Of a DNA stretch of 64,000 nt, positions 29,037 to 59,686 are shown in pieces. Source of the DNA: Lentiprolixibacter aurantiacus (GTDB lineage Bacteria; Bacteroidota; Bacteroidia; Flavobacteriales; Flavobacteriaceae); NCBI RefSeq assembly GCF_026241225.1, contig NZ_JAPFQP010000001.1, positions 496,001-560,000 on the forward strand, written 5' to 3'. Every line of letters starts with the position of its first letter. The stretch's first letter is position 1. The notes below the pieces were generated by a model, which ran no database searches, was not told where the DNA came from, and worked only from the letters and a program-made list of their open reading frames with translations. A program made the translations under genes and the position numbers.

Positions 29037-29918
29037 ATGGACCAAAAAACGGTACGCTATATGGGAAGCAGTCCTAAATATCCTGAAAAAGTCTACCTCA
29101 ATGGAAAAATTCTCGATGCCGACCAGGCACAGATCTCCGTATTTGACCGGGGTTTTATCTTCGGAGATGGGATCTACGAGGTGATGGCCCGGATCAACGG
29201 GCGGTTTTTTTTCAAAAAAGCCCACCTGGACCGGTTAAAATGGTGCCTGAAACAAATTGATATTTCCCTGGATGTGGATGCCCTGGAACGAGAGATCCCG
29301 GCCTTGCTGCAAGCCTCCGGACTGGACAACAAGGACTGCCTGTTGTACATGCAGGTAAGCCGGGGCGTGGCACCCCGGCAACACAGCTTTCCCAAAGGGA
29401 TAAGGCGTACCGTGATGATGTATGCCTGGGAGAAAAAGCTGCCCGATATCAACAATAATCATGCTTCCGTAGTCACCATGGCCGACTTCCGCTGGTCGCG
29501 CTGCGATATCAAAATGACCTCCCTTCTGGGCAATGTCATGGCCAACGAACACGCCATGCAAAACGATTGCTATGAGACTGTTTTTGAGCGCAATGGTATT
29601 ATTACAGAAGCCTCACATTGCAACGTGTTCTTTGTGAAAGACGGGGTCGTCTACACGCATCCCACTGGGCCTTACCTGCTGGATGGCATTACCCGACAGG
29701 TGGTTCTGGAGCTTTGTGAACAACTAGCAATTGAAGTTCGATTAGAAGGTGTTCCAGCTTCCGAGATTCAAAACATGGATGAGGCCTTCCTTACCGGGAC
29801 CAGCACCCAGGTGCTGGCGATACAAAAAGTGGATGACTATAGCTATTTTGAAAAGGAACCCGGACCCCTTACCCAAAAGCTGCAGCAAGCCTTTTTAGGT
29901 TTGAAAAGGACGGTATAA
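29037..29918 (+). CDS. dat: Class IV aminotransferase, probably D-amino-acid transaminase
   Basis: PLP enzyme of 293 residues. N-terminal SVFDRGFIFGDGIYEVMARI, the PLP-lysine region DIKMTSLLGNVMANEHA and the cofactor site TEASHCNVFFV are clear. The DIKxxxLLGNVMA form resembles D-alanine transaminases more than branched-chain ones, so it likely interconverts D-alanine and D-glutamate for cell wall; IlvE-like activity cannot be excluded. It begins 2 bp after a 42-residue exported-peptide ORF. DUF6090 genes follow 39 bp downstream. Confidence 0.85.
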   Translation: MDQKTVRYMGSSPKYPEKVYLNGKILDADQAQISVFDRGFIFGDGIYEVMARINGRFFFKKAHLDRLKWCLKQIDISLDVDALEREIPALLQASGLDNKDCLLYMQVSRGVAPRQHSFPKGIRRTVMMYAWEKKLPDINNNHASVVTMADFRWSRCDIKMTSLLGNVMANEHAMQNDCYETVFERNGIITEASHCNVFFVKDGVVYTHPTGPYLLDGITRQVVLELCEQLAIEVRLEGVPASEIQNMDEAFLTGTSTQVLAIQKVDDYSYFEKEPGPLTQKLQQAFLGLKRTV

Positions 29919-29957: not shown

Positions 29958-30695
29958 ATGCTCCGCTTCTTTCGTCAAATCCGTCAAAAACTAATAACTG
30001 AAAATAGGTTCAGTAAATACCTGTTGTATGGAATAGGCGAGATTTTGCTGGTGGTAATAGGTATTTTAATTGCTCTTCAAATCAACAATTGGAACAATGA
30101 AATCCAGGACAGGGAAAAGGAAAAATACTACCTGAAGAGTGTCAGAACCAGTATTGAATTATCCCAAAACGAATTGGACCGTGTAATCCGCGATGCCAAA
30201 CTGATCTCCTCCAGTGCGGATACCTTGTTTTTACTCCTGGCCCGGGAGAAGTACGGCTTGCTGAATGGTATTTTCCTGGACAGCCTGTTGTTCAGAGCGG
30301 CCGACTACAGCCAGATTTCCCTAAATGACGGTGGCATACAGGAAATATTAAATACTGGCTCCCTGGGTATAATTACAAATGATACCATCAGGGTTATCCT
30401 GGCGTCCTGGAATGAAAGGATGCACGTAATCCGGAAGTTCGAAGCGGAAACCAAAGAACTGAATCAAAAGTATGTGGCATACCTGAATAACTATATAAAT
30501 GCATCCCGGTTTTTACTGGATTCTGTTAGTGTTGTAATCCCCGAAAAGAAGAAAACATTATTGACAGATCCGCTTTTACGCAATTATTTGGAACGCATCA
30601 CGGGTCTGCATTATGACATGCATGACATGTATTCAGAAGAAAAGCGAATGCTGGATTCTTTATCTGGCTTGATTAAGCAGCACCTTAGGGAATGA
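29958..30695 (+). CDS. DUF6090-family membrane-anchored protein, copy 1
   Basis: 245 residues: a basic amphipathic start (MLRFFRQIRQKLITENRFSK), one membrane helix (about 26-44, GEILLVVIGILIALQI), the signature NNWNNE, then a mostly helical domain of about 195 residues expected on the outer side of the inner membrane. Function of the family is unknown. The first 45 residues are nearly identical to those of copies at 30692 and 58231 while the rest diverges. Its stop overlaps the start of copy 2 (ATGA). Confidence 0.88.
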   Translation: MLRFFRQIRQKLITENRFSKYLLYGIGEILLVVIGILIALQINNWNNEIQDREKEKYYLKSVRTSIELSQNELDRVIRDAKLISSSADTLFLLLAREKYGLLNGIFLDSLLFRAADYSQISLNDGGIQEILNTGSLGIITNDTIRVILASWNERMHVIRKFEAETKELNQKYVAYLNNYINASRFLLDSVSVVIPEKKKTLLTDPLLRNYLERITGLHYDMHDMYSEEKRMLDSLSGLIKQHLRE

Positions 30696-31417
30696 TTCGC
30701 TTCTTCCGACAAATCCGCCAACGTCTTTTAACCGAGAACCGGTTTACGAAGTACCTGCTATATGCAATCGGGGAGATCATCCTGGTGGTAATCGGGATCC
30801 TCATCGCTTTGCAGATCAACAACTGGAATGAAGAACAACGGTCAAAAAGACAAGCCGATGTATTTCGAGAAAAGCTAGTTCAGGACGTTATTCAGGACAC
30901 GCTCAAGATCAATGAAATCCTTGAAGATCGAAAGCGCATCCAAAAAAATATCAAAGATTACTTTGAATATTTTGATTCAGGGCAACATACACCTGAAACC
31001 CTCATTGATTCTGCAAGGAGTGTAAAATGGTCCCTCTTCAGGTACCTTCCCCAGAACTACACTTTTAGGGATATGCAGGCTACCGGCAATACCTCTCTGT
31101 TAATGGAAAAAGAGCGCGAAGGTCTTATTGACCTTGCTAACACACAAGATTTCCTTATTCAAATTATTGAAAAGCAGATCGATGAGATTCTGGAAGAATT
31201 ACACAAACGGGATGCCTATTTAGGCGACCATATGTCGGAAACCGATTTCTTTGAAACGCTGAACGCCCCTCTTAACCCTGCCGAATCCCGGAAAGGGTTG
31301 CTGCATCAACACAATGCCTTTACAGAAATAGTAGAATTGGGAGACATCATGGAAGCATTTGCAATTTCGATTAAGCAAAAATCCAAAAACCTGATCCTCC
31401 TCCTGAAACAAAATTGA
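30692..31417 (+). CDS. DUF6090-family membrane-anchored protein, copy 2
   Basis: 241 residues with the same plan: MIRFFRQIRQRLLTENRFTK, a membrane helix (GEIILVVIGILIALQI), NNWNEEQRSKR, then a charged helical domain (ILEDRKRIQKNIKDYFEYF). It shares a 4-nt overlap with copy 1, so the two are translationally coupled. Compared with copy 1 the C-terminal domain is only weakly similar. A truncated third copy begins 5 bp after its stop. Confidence 0.88.
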   Translation: MIRFFRQIRQRLLTENRFTKYLLYAIGEIILVVIGILIALQINNWNEEQRSKRQADVFREKLVQDVIQDTLKINEILEDRKRIQKNIKDYFEYFDSGQHTPETLIDSARSVKWSLFRYLPQNYTFRDMQATGNTSLLMEKEREGLIDLANTQDFLIQIIEKQIDEILEELHKRDAYLGDHMSETDFFETLNAPLNPAESRKGLLHQHNAFTEIVELGDIMEAFAISIKQKSKNLILLLKQN

Positions 31418-31422
31418 TTAGC

Positions 31423-31500
31423 ATGATCCGCTTCTTTCGCCAAATCCGACAGCGCCTCCTCCCGATAGCTATCGGGACTGATGGCTATACAGGTTATTAG
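31423..31500 (+). pseudogene. Truncated DUF6090 copy 3
   Basis: ATG 31423 reads MIRFFRQIRQRLL, the exact family N-terminus, then leaves homology at codon 14 where an 18-bp palindrome (31460-31477) begins, and ends at TAG 31500 after 25 codons. No further DUF6090 sequence is seen before the next gene. Either a deletion or a repeat-mediated rearrangement removed the rest of a third tandem copy. Confidence 0.75.
31460..31477. repeat. 18-bp perfect palindrome at the break point of the truncated DUF6090 copy
   Basis: TCCCGATAGCTATCGGGA is a perfect inverted repeat with no loop base. It sits exactly where similarity to the DUF6090 N-terminal block stops. I see only this full copy in the window. 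It may be a member of a dispersed palindromic repeat family. Confidence 0.7.
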
Positions 31501-31622
31501 CTGCTGTGTACAGTTCAAAGGCTTATTTCAGATATTTAAGCGGAGACTAATCATAATCCCGGTATTACTTGCTTATGTGCCTAATATGTGCTTACTTCCC
31601 GTTTTTTAAAAACAAAAATCCT

Positions 31623-34319
31623 ATGAAATATCTCAGCTTGTTTTTGATGCTGGCAATTCCTTTTGCAGGAACTGCCCAGGAAAATAAATGGACTCCTGAA
31701 GAGATTATCAATACGGTCTATGTAGGCAGCCCGGAATTTTCCAAAGACGGACAAAAAGTGGTCTGGTCCCAGAGAAAAGGCCTGAAAAAAGAAGACAAAT
31801 TCGTTAACCAGCTTTACATGGCCCGTTTGAATAATGAGGCCGGCAAACCCAAAGTAGTACAGCTCACGCGCTCCAAGTCAAGTGAATCCAACCCCGTATT
31901 CAGTGCAGATGGGGAAAGCCTGTATTTCCTGTCGTCCCGGGAGAAAGGCAAAAAACTGTGGAAGCTCAACCTCTACGGGGGGGAACCCGAAGAGGTCCAC
32001 ACATTTGAAAATGGCATCAGCTCTGTAAAAAGACTGGATGCCGGAACCCTTCTCTTCATTAGCGAGGAAGGGAAAACGCTCTATGATATCTCCAACGAAA
32101 AGGACAATACCAACATTGTGGAGGATACGCTTCACTGGAACCCAAGGCGTATCTATTCTTTCGACCTCAAATCCAAAGAGATCAACAGGATTACTGAAAA
32201 TGCGTACCGCATCAACAATTATGAAGTTTCCGAAGATGGACAATACCTGGTCTATCAGGAAATCACCACTCCAGATTATGGCGTGGACGGGAACCCCAAA
32301 CCCAATTACGTGCTAGTAAATCTTAAGGAAAAGTCCTCTACCAAAATCCTGAGTGGTTTGCAAAGCCCAACGGCGTATCGCTTTACAAAAGATGGAAAGG
32401 GCTTTTATTTCTCTGCAGAAACCTCCTCAGACCCGGAATGGAATGGTTCAGGGATACGGGAACTGTATTACTACACATTTAGCACAGGAAATTACACCAA
32501 AGTCCCGTTGGAATGGGAAAATGGCCTTTCCGGGGAATATTTCCTGAACGGGAATGGCCTTATCGTACAACTGGCCAATGGCCCTTTAAGGAAAGTCAGA
32601 TACTACGAAAAAAAGAACTCGGACTGGTCGTGGAAAGATATTTCACTGGGGGATCAGCAGGAACATGTTTCCGTAATGGCATTCAACCCGGCTTCCGGCA
32701 AAATCCTCTACCGGCACTCCACAGCCTCGAAACTCCCGGAATACTACCTGGCTAAAATTAAAGTAGGGCGAAAAAGCATCTCCCTTGAGGGATCAAAAAC
32801 ACTTACTTCCCTCAACGATAAACTCAAAAAGAAGCCTATTGCCAAATCTGAAATCATTTACTGGAAAGGGGCTAATGATGAAGAGGTAAACGGAATTTTA
32901 TACTACCCCAAGAATTACGTGGCCGGGAAGAAATACCCGCTGGTCCTGAGTATCCATGGCGGACCAACCGGAGTAGACCAGGATCGCTGGTCCGAACGCT
33001 GGTCTACCTATCCCCAGATCTTTACAGACAAGGGGGCTTTTGTGCTGAAGCCAAATTACCACGGCTCAGGCAACCACAGCCAGGCATTTGTAGAGTCCAT
33101 TAAGAATGGGAAATACTATTCCCTGGAGGAAGTGGACCTCTACAATGGCATACAGCACCTGAATCAGCAAGGCTACGTGGATATGGACAAACTGGGAATA
33201 ATGGGCTGGTCTAACGGTGCCATACTGGCTACCTGGATGACCCTCCAATACCCCGATATGTTCAAGGTGGCTGCACCGGGTGCGGGTGATGTTAACTGGA
33301 CATCAGATTACGGTACCTGCAGGTTCGGTGTGACATTTGACCAGAGTTATTTTGGCGGTGCCCCATGGGACGATACCAACGGAAAACATTACAACGAATG
33401 GTACATCAAGTATTCCCCAATCTTCGAGATTGAAAAAATCAAAACCCCGACAATCATTTTCCACGGGAGTGAAGACCGTTCTGTTCCGCGCGACCAGGGC
33501 TGGGAGTATTATCGAGGACTGCAACAGGTTGGGAAGGCCCCCGTTAAATTCCTGTGGTTCCCGGGTCAGCCACATGGCTTGCGCAAGATAACACACCAGC
33601 TAAGGAAGATGAAGGAAGAAATTGACTGGTTTGAAACTTACCTGTTTAAAGATAAAAAGGAGGAAAACGAGGCCTTCAAGAAAGATAGTCCGCTTGCCTC
33701 ACTGCTGAGTTTGCAAAAGAACATGTCTGGTGATGGCCTGTTGGGGACTATGGAAAACGGAGTGCTTATCCCCAGCGTGGTAGCTACTGCTAAAGACAGC
33801 ATATCCATTGGCACCCACGAGGTTTCAATTGCCCAGTACCATGCTTATACCGGAAAGGATTACGACCGGCTTCATGCCAACATGCCTGTTACCGGATTAA
33901 GCAAGGCAGATATAGAAGGTTACCTCTCCTGGTTATCCGAAAAAATGGGAGCTACCTACAGGTTGCCCAATGCAAGTGAAGCTAAAAAATGGCACAAGAA
34001 GGCCCGAACAAGCTATAAGAACCAGAACAACCTCAACCATTGGGCTGGCTATAAGCTGACCAATCTGGATGTTGCAGATTTACGCTCCAAAATGGGTGAA
34101 TTGAAAGTCTCCCTGATCAGGAACGGGGGAAGCCATCCCATGCTTAAACTGAAAGAAGGGGTTATAATCTATGATCTGGGTGGAAATGTGGCCGAGTATT
34201 ATTCTGATGGAGGGAATTTAAAGACCTACGATTACAGCGCTTATGATTTTGTAGATCCCGCCAGTACCGCTAATAAGCCTGCGCCAGAACATACAGGTTT
34301 CAGGGTGGTTAAGGAATAG
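31623..34319 (+). CDS. S9 family peptidase fused to a formylglycine-generating-enzyme-like domain
   Basis: 898 residues with a signal peptide (KYLSLFLMLAIPFAGTAQ). A beta-propeller of WD40-like repeats (about 25-420, e.g. SPEFSKDGQKVVWSQ, NPVFSADGESLYFLSS) precedes an alpha/beta hydrolase with S530 (GWSNGA), D618 (GSEDRSVP) and H651 (QPHGL). After about residue 700 comes a domain with the hallmarks of the FGE-sulfatase/SUMF1 fold: IGTHEVSIAQYHAY, the YRLPNASEAKKW block and DLGGNVAEYYSDGG ... GFRVV. This tail has no cysteines, so it is not an active FGE oxidase. Periplasmic peptidase; substrate unknown. The frame is open to 31569 but ATG 31623 begins the signal. Confidence 0.92.
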   Translation: MKYLSLFLMLAIPFAGTAQENKWTPEEIINTVYVGSPEFSKDGQKVVWSQRKGLKKEDKFVNQLYMARLNNEAGKPKVVQLTRSKSSESNPVFSADGESLYFLSSREKGKKLWKLNLYGGEPEEVHTFENGISSVKRLDAGTLLFISEEGKTLYDISNEKDNTNIVEDTLHWNPRRIYSFDLKSKEINRITENAYRINNYEVSEDGQYLVYQEITTPDYGVDGNPKPNYVLVNLKEKSSTKILSGLQSPTAYRFTKDGKGFYFSAETSSDPEWNGSGIRELYYYTFSTGNYTKVPLEWENGLSGEYFLNGNGLIVQLANGPLRKVRYYEKKNSDWSWKDISLGDQQEHVSVMAFNPASGKILYRHSTASKLPEYYLAKIKVGRKSISLEGSKTLTSLNDKLKKKPIAKSEIIYWKGANDEEVNGILYYPKNYVAGKKYPLVLSIHGGPTGVDQDRWSERWSTYPQIFTDKGAFVLKPNYHGSGNHSQAFVESIKNGKYYSLEEVDLYNGIQHLNQQGYVDMDKLGIMGWSNGAILATWMTLQYPDMFKVAAPGAGDVNWTSDYGTCRFGVTFDQSYFGGAPWDDTNGKHYNEWYIKYSPIFEIEKIKTPTIIFHGSEDRSVPRDQGWEYYRGLQQVGKAPVKFLWFPGQPHGLRKITHQLRKMKEEIDWFETYLFKDKKEENEAFKKDSPLASLLSLQKNMSGDGLLGTMENGVLIPSVVATAKDSISIGTHEVSIAQYHAYTGKDYDRLHANMPVTGLSKADIEGYLSWLSEKMGATYRLPNASEAKKWHKKARTSYKNQNNLNHWAGYKLTNLDVADLRSKMGELKVSLIRNGGSHPMLKLKEGVIIYDLGGNVAEYYSDGGNLKTYDYSAYDFVDPASTANKPAPEHTGFRVVKE

Positions 34320-57752: not shown

Positions 57753-58226
57753 ATGAATAGGCAATACTGTGCATTTTTGGTAATATTCATCCTCATCCTT
57801 TCAGGATGCAGGGAATCAAGGCCAATTGGCGAAATGAAGTTTCCAGAAGGCAGCGTGCAGCATGTTGTGCGTGCCGGTGAAATCAAATGGACCCCCTGCC
57901 CACCCAATTTGCCCTCGGATTGTGAACTGGCTGTTTTGGAAGGGAGCCCTAAAAACCCTGATTTCTTCTCTGTTCGCTTCAGGCTTGGCGGTAAATTTGT
58001 GATGCCACCTCATACACATCCCAAAGATGAGCGGGTAACCATACTGCAGGGTAATGCCTATGTGGCATTCGGAGAGAGAGGAACACGTGAAAATGCAAAA
58101 CAGTTTGGGCCGGGGGATTACTACGTAAATGCCAGGGGGGCTATCCATTCAGTTTGGGCAGACTCCGCAACCGTTATCCAGATAAGCGGGATAGGGCCCT
58201 GGGAAGTGGACTTCCTGGAAAAATAA
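57753..58226 (+). CDS. Cupin-fold lipoprotein
   Basis: 157 residues: lipoprotein signal (YCAFLVIFILILSGC, C19) then a small cupin barrel. Metal-binding pattern PPHTHPKDE (two histidines and a glutamate region) and the second cupin motif FGPGDYYVNARGAIHSVW are present. Such domains act as isomerases, decarboxylases or dioxygenases, or simply bind ligands. It is 20 bp after the Gfo/Idh/MocA gene and 4 bp before the DUF6090 gene, so all three probably form one transcript. Confidence 0.88.
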   Translation: MNRQYCAFLVIFILILSGCRESRPIGEMKFPEGSVQHVVRAGEIKWTPCPPNLPSDCELAVLEGSPKNPDFFSVRFRLGGKFVMPPHTHPKDERVTILQGNAYVAFGERGTRENAKQFGPGDYYVNARGAIHSVWADSATVIQISGIGPWEVDFLEK

Positions 58227-58230
58227 GCCC

Positions 58231-59004
58231 ATGCTGCGCTTCTTCCGGCAAATACGTCAACGTCTCCTTGCGGACAATAAACTTAGCAAGTACCTCTTGT
58301 ATGCCATCGGGGAGATTTTTCTGGTCGTGATTGGGATATTGATTGCCTTGCAGGTCAACAACTGGAATGAAGAACGCAAGGAGTTCCGGCAGGCCCTAAG
58401 CCTACTTGGTAATTTAAAGGATGAATTGCAGCAGGACAGCCTCCATTTCAGGAATGTTTTTACCGCCGAGAAAACCCTTTTCCTCCCGTCGGCACAGCGG
58501 CTCTTCAATGCACACCGGGGATTCTATAACCCCAGTCCCGGGGACAGCCTCCTCGGCCAAGCTTTCCGTTTTGCAACCTTTACCCCCAATATCAAATATT
58601 CAGACAATGCCTACCGGCGACTACTGACCACAGACCTTCTGGATGCCCTGGAGGATTCTGATTCCCTGAGATTGAAATTACTCGAATACTATGGGCAGAT
58701 CGACTTCCTGAACCTCTATGCGGAACAGACCTTAGGTATCATCAATGATTTATCACGGGAGCTGGCTCCCTACCACTTGGTTATTCCTGCTACAAATCCG
58801 GACGGGCGGGATATCTCCAGTTTCTCAGGAGCCGGGGAAGAATACTTTAAGGCAGAATATGACCTGGAGGCATTTCGAAAGAATCCAGCCCTGAATCCCA
58901 AGCTTTTTGATATGATCGACATCCACAAAGACCGCCTCGGGGGTCTTGAAATTATCCGAAAGCTCAATGCTGATCTTCTGCAAATCCTGTCCTCCATAGA
59001 CTGA
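58231..59004 (+). CDS. DUF6090-family membrane-anchored protein, copy 4
   Basis: 257 residues with the family start MLRFFRQIRQRLLADNKLSK, a membrane helix (GEIFLVVIGILIALQV) and NNWNEER, then a helical domain unlike those of copies 1 and 2. It starts 4 bp after the cupin gene. The DNA of the first 140 bases is clearly related to the starts at 29958, 30692 and 31423, about 27-28 kb away. Confidence 0.88.
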   Translation: MLRFFRQIRQRLLADNKLSKYLLYAIGEIFLVVIGILIALQVNNWNEERKEFRQALSLLGNLKDELQQDSLHFRNVFTAEKTLFLPSAQRLFNAHRGFYNPSPGDSLLGQAFRFATFTPNIKYSDNAYRRLLTTDLLDALEDSDSLRLKLLEYYGQIDFLNLYAEQTLGIINDLSRELAPYHLVIPATNPDGRDISSFSGAGEEYFKAEYDLEAFRKNPALNPKLFDMIDIHKDRLGGLEIIRKLNADLLQILSSID

Positions 59005-59179
59005 AAGCATCTCTCAAAAAAGAAATTGAGCCTCTTCCTCTTTCTTTTCCCATATCCCTTAAAACGCTTTTTAAGCTGTAGGGATAGGCGGATACCATGG
59101 CCCCATACTCCCAATGCTCTGGTGAAATGACTATCTTTAAATACGTCCGCCCTGTTATAACCAACCAAATTCCACAAAC

Positions 59180-59686
59180 ATGAAAGACATCAAGTTAAAC
59201 CTTCGCATTATTTATTCTGCTATTATCATATCGGTATTCTGTTTTCAGCTTCATGCCCAGGATAGTCCTTCCGGGGAAGAATCTGCGGCTATAGCAAGTT
59301 CATATAACCTTACCCTGCAACATACGACCCTGGTTGTTAGCAATTTTGAAGCAAGCAGAGAGTTCTACACCAAAATTCTTGGCCTTAAAGATTTAAATGC
59401 GGATTGGTTACCTGAAAATCAAATGTTTATTTCGCTTGGAAACAATCTGGAGCTGCATGTTGGGGAAGTTCCGGGAGTAGAAATAAAGCCCAGTACTTTT
59501 AATCATTTCGCAATATCCACCAATGATTTGGATGCCTATTTAAAGCATTTGAATTCCCATGGTGTGATACACTCTTCCTTAGGGGGTGGTGAAAAAAAAT
59601 ACATTCAAAAAAGACCTGATGGGGTAAGTCAGACATTTATCCAGGATCCCGATGGGTATTGGATTGAAATCAACGATGCAAATTAA
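59180..59686 (+). CDS. Exported VOC-family (glyoxalase-fold) protein
   Basis: 168 residues: signal peptide (AIIISVFCFQLHAQ), then one VOC domain with two beta-alpha-beta repeats: LQHTTLVVSNFEASREFYTKILGLKDL and FNHFAISTNDLDAYLKHLNSHG, ending FIQDPDGYWIEIND. Metal ligands H52/E and H near 113/E near 164 fit the fold (positions approximate). Exported members are uncommon; substrate unknown. A core-family terminator follows. Confidence 0.85.
   Translation: MKDIKLNLRIIYSAIIISVFCFQLHAQDSPSGEESAAIASSYNLTLQHTTLVVSNFEASREFYTKILGLKDLNADWLPENQMFISLGNNLELHVGEVPGVEIKPSTFNHFAISTNDLDAYLKHLNSHGVIHSSLGGGEKKYIQKRPDGVSQTFIQDPDGYWIEINDAN

Follow-up and report, generated by a model that had tools for sequence, protein, structure and literature searches.

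Tandem DUF6090 genes in Lentiprolixibacter aurantiacus: a constant 5′ module, diverging outer domains and an orphan start

How can neighbouring genes share a nearly fixed beginning when the parts that follow have little in common, and what is a gene that consists of the beginning alone? These questions are raised by a locus in a 64,000-nucleotide stretch of the Lentiprolixibacter aurantiacus genome (the window; contig NZ_JAPFQP010000001.1, positions 496,001 to 560,000, or C1:496001-560000 of the 3.13 Mb genome G000), in which four genes of the DUF6090 family (PF19578) begin alike. Copies 1, 2 and 3 form a tandem row, the third being cut off shortly after its start, and copy 4 lies further downstream (Table 1). 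The original prediction, made from the letters alone, had described a constant membrane-targeting module carrying swapped outer domains and had proposed recombination at the 5′ block, as in antigen- or specificity-switching families. The explanation that we consider probable is that of a two-part gene, with a 5′ module that is under selection and exchanges in relatives, an outer domain that diverges, and a copy 3 that is a relic orphan start. The row would then consist of short, tightly packed genes belonging to a high-turnover family of single-span membrane proteins.

The 5′ module: conservation and exchange

All three full copies exceed the curated Pfam cut-off of 23.5 bits for PF19578, a model that begins at residue 28 of the window proteins, and the whole genome holds 13 matches, 12 of them above that cut-off. 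Over the first 46 residues, 40 are identical between copies 1 and 2, 37 between copies 1 and 4, and 38 between copies 2 and 4. Beyond residue 55 the corresponding identities are 0.20, 0.22 and 0.19, so the claim that the domains beyond the membrane helix differ strongly (19-22% identity) was borne out. At the DNA level, the same three comparisons give 107, 107 and 112 identical bases among the first 150. Plotted along the length of nine full proteins of this genome, identity was not uniform, as had been expected; its pairwise mean in columns 1-50, taken in tens, was 0.74, 0.47, 0.75, 0.89 and 0.52, and it was 0.08-0.28 in the later column blocks (one last block with a single comparison omitted). 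Among 101 family members, 12 columns are invariant, all within residues 1-39 (M1, R9, Y21, Y24, G27, E28, L31, V32, G35, I36, L37 and A39).

Synonymous sites point to the protein as the level at which this constancy is maintained. Across the 55 pairs of 11 own-genome genes, 706 of 1763 comparisons of codons for the same residue at positions 1-50 gave the identical codon (0.400), where codon usage alone would give 0.382, and fourfold-degenerate third bases agreed in 149 of 516 (0.289). By section, observed and expected values were 0.47 and 0.41 for codons 2-8, 0.42 and 0.38 for codons 9-20, and 0.38 and 0.38 for codons 21-50; only codons 2-8 carry a slight excess. The best pairs, with 22 of 35 identical codons (0.63; 13.5 expected) and 20 of 32, are unremarkable among 55 and neither includes a window gene. 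Some relatives do exceed expectation in sections of the block, for example locus L038 in codons 2-8 (0.70 against 0.38). Because synonymous codon identity in this genome is close to what codon usage predicts, the constant block is kept by selection on the protein, and the DNA likeness of the window copies is essentially what the protein requires. The claim that the four copies share about 45 residues and much of their DNA thus held for the residues (37-40 of 46 in the three full copies, 13 codons in copy 3), whereas the DNA likeness does not exceed what the protein demands. Recent gene conversion among the window copies was rejected, their synonymous sites being saturated.

The picture in relatives was obtained from 305 DUF6090 genes of 46 genomes, a collection gathered by the start module and not exhaustive (G numbers denote genomes and L numbers fetched loci). 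Among genes of at least 190 aa, 23 of 2337 within-genome pairs combined a synonymous identity of at least 0.75 over codons 2-50 with a protein identity below 0.35 beyond residue 55; 18 of the 23 have at least 25 comparable codons and are spread over 6 genomes. When the outer-part filter was dropped and at least 25 codons were demanded, the 0.75 level was reached by 19 of 2210 within-genome pairs (0.86%) versus 39 of 30751 cross-genome pairs (0.13%), the top cross-genome pairs being orthologues of related Balneola strains. In the exchange pairs, likeness starts at the ATG and stops near nt 140. For pairs at or above 0.7, DNA identity was 0.30-0.44 across the 90 bases that precede the ATG, rose to 0.72-0.92 over nt 1-135 and fell to 0.29-0.42 after nt 150; over nt 1-135, pairs below 0.6 showed 0.55-0.80. 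Members of 25 of 60 pairs at or above 0.7 lay inside one fetched locus, versus 27% of all pairs. In an isolate of Bizionia arctica (now Xanthomarina arctica), 133 of the first 137 bases of one pair are identical and are followed by a protein identity of 0.17, and an Aestuariibaculum marinum pair has a synonymous identity of 0.88 with 0.24 protein identity in the outer part.

The reverse test took pairs with bodies at least 90% identical (25 pairs) and found the block significantly more divergent than the body (p<1e-3) in 5 and less divergent in none. Differences in block and body numbered 21/144 versus 6/564 for G118:3493/G117:5669, 16/144 versus 4/603 for G119:12720/G118:7964 (the same G119 gene also conflicts in comparison with G117), 29/144 versus 39/651 for G119:14406/G118:9616, and 24/144 versus 27/568 for isolates of Aureibaculum marinum and A. 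flavum. The block of G118:9616 resembles that of its array neighbour more closely (0.92) than that of its orthologue (0.80). The full comparison covered 69 body-homologous pairs, 12 of which had a more divergent block at p<1e-3; five of the 12 were excluded, as more than half of the block differs in each, probably through ungapped comparison of starts with insertions or deletions, and their bodies are all less than 80% identical. In L. aurantiacus itself, gene C1:1379880 and its counterpart in G011, from another genus within the family, differ at 80 of 624 body positions and 37 of 144 block positions (p=2.7e-4). Their body DNA is 87% identical, their block 74%, and their flanks are unrelated; the high likeness sets in near codon 42 and extends roughly 14 nt beyond the stop codon.

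As judged from these comparisons, the 5′ module, which is the stretch best conserved between paralogues, behaves in relatives, isolates included, as a zone of ectopic exchange, by gene conversion or crossover, and in the exchanges seen the homology was supplied by the shared constant end. Recombination at the 5′ block, as originally proposed, is thus supported in relatives and for C1:1379880, and not for the window copies.

Orphan starts and structured leaders

Copy 3 begins 5 nt behind copy 2, encodes MIRFFRQIRQRLL in 13 family codons, as had been correctly noted, and then continues in frame across the palindrome TCCCGATAGCTATCGGGA until the stop codon at 31498-31500; past the palindrome nothing recognisable of the family is left. 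It did not arise by recent duplication, because only 4 of its 12 same-residue codons are identical to those of copy 2. It does not pass the PF19578 cut-off and is absent from the 13 genome matches, since its residues 1-13 precede the first position of the model. A scan of up to 400 nt behind each DUF6090 gene found 34 such orphan starts, copy 3 among them, in 226 regions of 14 genomes, versus 0.53 per Markov shuffle (30 shuffles, at most 2). Of these, 29 begin within 10 nt of the stop codon and 23 keep 7-8 codons by a rough extension rule. Upstream of DUF6090 genes, 39 were found in 233 regions versus 0.45 after shuffling (20 shuffles, at most 2); some orphans belong to both sets, and two of the genomes, G117 and G118, come from closely related strains. 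Copy 3 is thus an orphan start of a recurrent kind, a DUF6090 start piece beside a full gene that often runs into a hairpin repeat.

The next gene lies at 30-500 nt from 22 orphans (21 in Balneolaceae, one in Winogradskyella). In 18 of these no stop codon interrupts the orphan frame across the intervening element, and the frame closes 7, 8 or, in one case, 17 nt into the next gene, typically at ATGCTGA or ATGCTTAG; frames +1 and +2 reach the next start in none of the 22. The elements, 61-365 nt long, are mutually related and include two near-identical pairs, so the 22 cases are not independent. An arm of the form TTTGAACCGCTGATTAAA has 15 of its 16 matches in arrays, in 5 of 8 genomes, and 41 of 74 matches to a looser arm pattern lie in an array or at its edge. 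These elements recall the Rickettsia palindromic elements and other small palindromic repeats, which are, according to the review PMC2229807, hairpin repeats of about 100-200 nt with an open frame, fused in frame to genes. Unlike the elements described there, the DUF6090 element lies between an orphan and a full start of one family, and its frame usually closes shortly after entering the next gene; the window palindrome has a length of just 18 bp, and copy 3 is no insertion tolerated within an intact gene, its frame ending after 25 codons.

The palindrome that lies in frame within copy 3 is a dispersed repeat. TCCCGATAGCTATCGGGA occurs at three places in this genome, and its core is found in 22 of 100 family genomes, in up to 53 copies, and in none of the other 78; the pattern read backwards was found in none of the genomes checked. 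A chance match was rejected on these counts. Members of a wider palindrome family also sit near DUF6090 genes: in the sequence fetched from this genome, three of the four full copies and a half copy are at most 130 nt away from such a gene. Of the three exact copies in the whole genome, a single one is that near. The congener G002 and Eudoraea adriatica each have one palindrome near a DUF6090 gene, that of Eudoraea being inside the element behind an orphan-like start. CCCGATAGCTATCGGG was counted 53 times in G105, 40 times in G094 and 34 times in G054. A literature search did not find the 16-base core in print.

Orphan starts might instead be leader open reading frames within a structured 5′ leader that regulates each DUF6090 gene, in which case copy 3 would be the leader of a lost gene. 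In several genomes of the Flavobacteriaceae, the family that includes Eudoraea, Winogradskyella, Aureibaculum and Bizionia (Xanthomarina), the stretch between the orphan and the true start contains a common two-hairpin element of about 92 nt; a second type is found in Eudoraea. When three copies representing the two leader types were used as BLAST queries, they matched 27 places in the fetched sequence, 26 of them on the same strand and 48-259 nt upstream of a DUF6090 start; by our own count, 22 different DUF6090 starts in 7 genomes are concerned. Strand and spacing are the informative part of this result, because the fetched sequence is centred on DUF6090 genes. In 12 aligned leader copies, 9 of 19 predicted pairs include a sequence in which both sides have changed and the pair is kept; the covariation term of the fold is small (-0.64 kcal/mol). 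A covariance model that includes both starts gave 38 matches, of which 31 stop at a DUF6090 start; with the training set left aside, 19 of 26 do so. L. aurantiacus itself has a second such orphan before one of its genes: the match at C1:1374989 reads MIKFFRLSKHHFARQNQRSGRPLVEIPTCGKIQTCAL, and its TGA overlaps the ATG of the gene at C1:1375099. Against such a role for copy 3, the model has no match in the window, copy 3 keeps 13 family codons rather than the usual 6-8, and no DUF6090 gene follows it on the same strand within 26 kb. A leader function thus seems to us a possible, if doubtful, account of the orphans.

The leader element spans L062:3990-4123, which corresponds to C1:1374989-1375122, and is seemingly tandem at L120:11950-12182. 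At the gathering threshold, Rfam gave nothing in the window and only tRNAs in eight further loci, including the leader-bearing L120, L062 and L082.

Weighing the explanations

The two-part gene that we favour could work as follows. Its 46-codon 5′ module, made of a short positive helix and a membrane helix, is held constant by selection while the helical outer domain diverges, and exchange at the module in relatives can place a resident start before another body. Orphan starts may be what is left when a gene in a row is severed close to its start, either through recombination or by a palindromic repeat, and they may be retained where they relay translation; in the window, the expected following gene would have been lost. 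The outer domain may sense or bind varied partners, and the invariant membrane module may dock a common partner or other members of the family. That orphan starts, hairpins and exchange are linked is something we infer. Carried furthest, DUF6090 rows would be a start-anchored cassette system, in which an orphan start and a hairpin provide homology for recombining new outer-domain bodies onto a resident start and relay ribosomes in frame over the junction, keeping the entire row translated, and which renews membrane-anchored binding domains in Bacteroidota and Balneolota without a dedicated recombinase. We regard this extension as rather unlikely; if relay and exchange did operate in this way, a bacterial family would keep swapping domains with every copy in frame and translated.

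Several observations weigh against the two-part explanation. The window copies themselves carry no sign of recent exchange, since their 5′ blocks are saturated at synonymous sites. Block and body conflict in only one of the four own-genome genes that have orthologues, the other three showing none. The five conflicts among 25 pairs are not independent, as two share a gene, and a donor block is visible in one of three conflicts examined; in the other two the orthologue is at least as close as any paralogue of the same genome. Most of the Balneola genomes were assembled from metagenomes, and short-read misassembly at a repeated block could mimic exchange in them, so the isolates carry the weight. 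Orphan counts include related arrays. For 22 of the 39 upstream orphans the frame closes between 0 and 20 nt into the next gene, and frame +1 reaches that gene in 8 and frame +2 in 1. Copy 3 exceeds most orphans in length, and since its frame closes at 25 codons, short of any other gene, no relay takes place there. Finally, orphans are no more like the start that follows them than they are like other starts (Balneola, 0.71 versus 0.71, p=0.93; others, 0.82 versus 0.81, p=0.076). This last result also disfavours a recent target duplication, and target-site duplication as the origin of orphan starts was not supported.

A simpler account would be that of ordinary divergent paralogues, in which an old tandem duplication left a constrained anchor, a fast-evolving outer domain and, in copy 3, a decayed pseudogene, with no recombination specific to the block. 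Taken alone, the window copies fit it, with their saturated synonymous sites, the predicted helix order common to copies 1 and 2 and the presence of short copies elsewhere in the genome. It does not explain pairs that are more than 90% identical across most of the block and near background after it, orthologues with blocks more divergent than their bodies, or orphan starts about 60-fold above shuffles, and we consider it unlikely.

DUF6090 genes might also move as integron-like cassettes, each with an attC-like hairpin behind its stop. CGAAAGCACAACA, with up to 3 mismatches, lies 3′ of the stop in 41 of 301 DUF6090 genes, and nine full hairpins of 128-142 nt can be aligned: their ends (GCACAACAA...GTTG..C) do not vary, their middles do, and six of the nine lie behind a DUF6090 gene. 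Within L. aurantiacus the motif follows 2 of 12 genes, both on C1 near 1.38 Mb, and is missing behind copies 1, 2 and 4. The 3′ box of attC sites has the consensus GTTRRRY, from which the box GTTGTGC departs. A generic scan for attC-like inverted repeats was hardly above its reversed control (104 matches for 799 seeds versus 97 for 646), and for this reason only the aligned hairpins with strict ends were used. Cassette movement also cannot explain a body that moves without its 5′ block. On balance this alternative is distinctly improbable. AttC-like hairpins of about 131 nt, such as those at L079:2337-2467 and L157:1625-1755, also occur behind other sequence, and their carriers are Flavobacteriaceae, one Rhodothermia genome and Balneolaceae genomes.

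The antigen- or specificity-switching family of the original prediction, in which the row would be a variation locus as for vlsE or pilE, can point to a constant and a variable end, copy-number variation and block exchange in relatives, and is nonetheless highly improbable: nothing found points to such a machine, every full copy collected has its own start, what is exchanged is the constant block and not the variable domain, no host context is known, and the fragments found are starts without a variable part. This holds for a collection that would miss start-less bodies and silent cassettes, because its genes were gathered by the start module and the own-genome Pfam matches begin without exception at profile position 1. 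Likeness to the segmental gene conversion of vlsE, pilE and mgpC extends to recombination between paralogues that share part of their sequence; those systems reportedly use silent copies to convert the variable part of the gene that is expressed, whereas here the constant start of full genes is exchanged.

Outer domains, locus and neighbourhood

Structures were predicted for copies 1 and 2 from alignments of 101 members, and both models have the same helix order: helices at 2-14 and 18-96, short helices, a long helix (151-176 in copy 1, 139-180 in copy 2) and a last long helix from 205 or 208. Because this order is identical, the outer domains of copies 1 and 2 are best described as diverged forms of one predicted architecture; the proposal that unrelated outer domains had been swapped between them was rejected. 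A weak pattern, L-x-S-x-G-x-L-x-x-I-x-N-x-x-L, is retained in the consensus of the variable part. The membrane helix spans approximately residues 23-43, and the first 22 residues hold 6 K/R and 1 D/E. By the positive-inside rule, this charge suggests that the N terminus lies inside and the C terminus outside.

Searches found no known fold or family for the outer domain, the best PDB sequence match having E 0.052 and the best Foldseek match E 0.018 (copy 1); NCBIfam gave two single-member matches only. In a structure comparison (VIA), designed bundles ranked first with Z 10-13, and sensor domains followed at Z 8-10. Four-helix-bundle periplasmic sensor domains were among these matches (in the comparison of copy 1, Tsr with Z 8.8 and NarQ with Z 9.2; in that of copy 2, PcaY_PP with Z 10.3), with scores under the level that separates helical bundles from a common arrangement, and unlike them the DUF6090 models have neither a second membrane span nor a signalling domain. 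As a proposal only, the outer domain could be a variable binding domain outside the inner membrane, carried on a common docking anchor. Polymorphic toxin systems also have variable C-terminal parts, which arise there, according to PMC3482391, from recombination with cassettes; unlike in those systems, no toxin or defence family was found, PADLOC giving one single-member match in the 101 members scanned.

For a family that is large (56 DUF6090 matches in the genome of Eudoraea adriatica, G127, and 46 in that of Winogradskyella aurantia, G130), the data thus define a conserved membrane module selected as protein, a confident model of the variable domain, a bordered zone of recombination, and a structured leader with an upstream start. 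The Pfam entry for DUF6090 states no function and covers neither exchange nor orphan starts nor leaders; our literature search found no paper naming DUF6090 and none describing such an arrangement.

Table 1. Features of the DUF6090 row, its flanks and copy 4, in window coordinates
Feature	Position	Strand	Evidence and remarks
Left flank, aminotransferase class IV gene	29037..29918	+	PF01063, 144.3 bits; orthologues 81-82% identical in congeners G001 and G002
DUF6090 copy 1, 245 aa	29958..30695	+	PF19578, 27.5 bits; all-helical model, mean pLDDT 92.5
Copy 1 constant 5′ module, codons 1-46 (short helix and membrane helix)	29958..30095	+	Identity profile; family-wide invariant columns
ATGA overlap, copy 1 stop and copy 2 start	30692..30695	+	Sequence
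DUF6090 copy 2, 241 aa	30692..31417	+	PF19578, 39.4 bits; model, mean pLDDT 87.2
Copy 2 constant 5′ module, codons 1-46	30692..30829	+	40/46 residues as in copy 1
Copy 3, orphan DUF6090 start, 13 codons	31423..31461	+	Open frame continues to 31500
Perfect 18-bp palindrome TCCCGATAGCTATCGGGA, dispersed repeat	31460..31477	no strand	Sequence
Right flank, S9 peptidase gene with C-terminal FGE-sulfatase-like domain	31569..34319	+	PF00326, 134.4 bits; PF03781, 26.9 bits; likely start, ATG at 31623
DUF6090 copy 4, 257 aa, between cupin and glyoxalase-fold genes	58231..59004	+	PF19578, 40.4 bits; neighbours PF00190 and PF00903

The segment of about 1.6 kb with copies 1-3 is present or absent within one genus, so that the copy-number variation anticipated at this locus is supported. 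In the congener G001 the orthologues of the aminotransferase and S9 peptidase genes are immediate neighbours, in that order, and no DUF6090 gene separates them; this assembly is 87% complete in 440 contigs, and its S9 orthologue is cut by a contig end so that only the front part is present. In the congener G002 the aminotransferase gene is followed by a DUF2339 gene (PF10101, at 34467 in the window), again without DUF6090; the S9 peptidase gene has no match in G002. Only 4 of 12 own-genome genes, none of them in the window, have a body relative of at least 45% identity in the collected set. Five related Balneola arrays are colinear and differ by the presence or absence of genes. Packing is tight, with a spacing of at most 20 nt in 75 of 158 same-strand neighbour pairs of DUF6090 genes and overlap in 40.

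No constant functional neighbour was found: in a scan of 71 upstream and 68 downstream neighbours (at most 150 nt away and under 900 aa), drawn from 218 same-strand neighbours within 300 nt, no Pfam family occurred in more than 5 members per side. The cupin gene that precedes copy 4 has no match in G001 or G002; together with copy 4 and the glyoxalase-fold gene it forms a row at 57753-59686. Three of the PF19578 matches in this genome lie in short open frames (C1:1064642, 148 aa; C1:1066255, 62 aa; C2:456776, 87 aa). A DUF6090 gene lies beside, or one gene from, an S9/FGE-sulfatase-like gene in 5 of 7 genomes (G000, G011, G076, G099 and G094; not G100 or G064). Among the 71 upstream neighbours, one is a phage-integrase-family protein and three matched Y1_Tnp. 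Stretches of about 604 nt that resemble an IS200-like transposase gene, by our reading of the sequence, lie at L029:7675-8278 and L040:5999-6602; in Balneola rows they sit behind DUF6090 pieces cut after about 30-33 codons.

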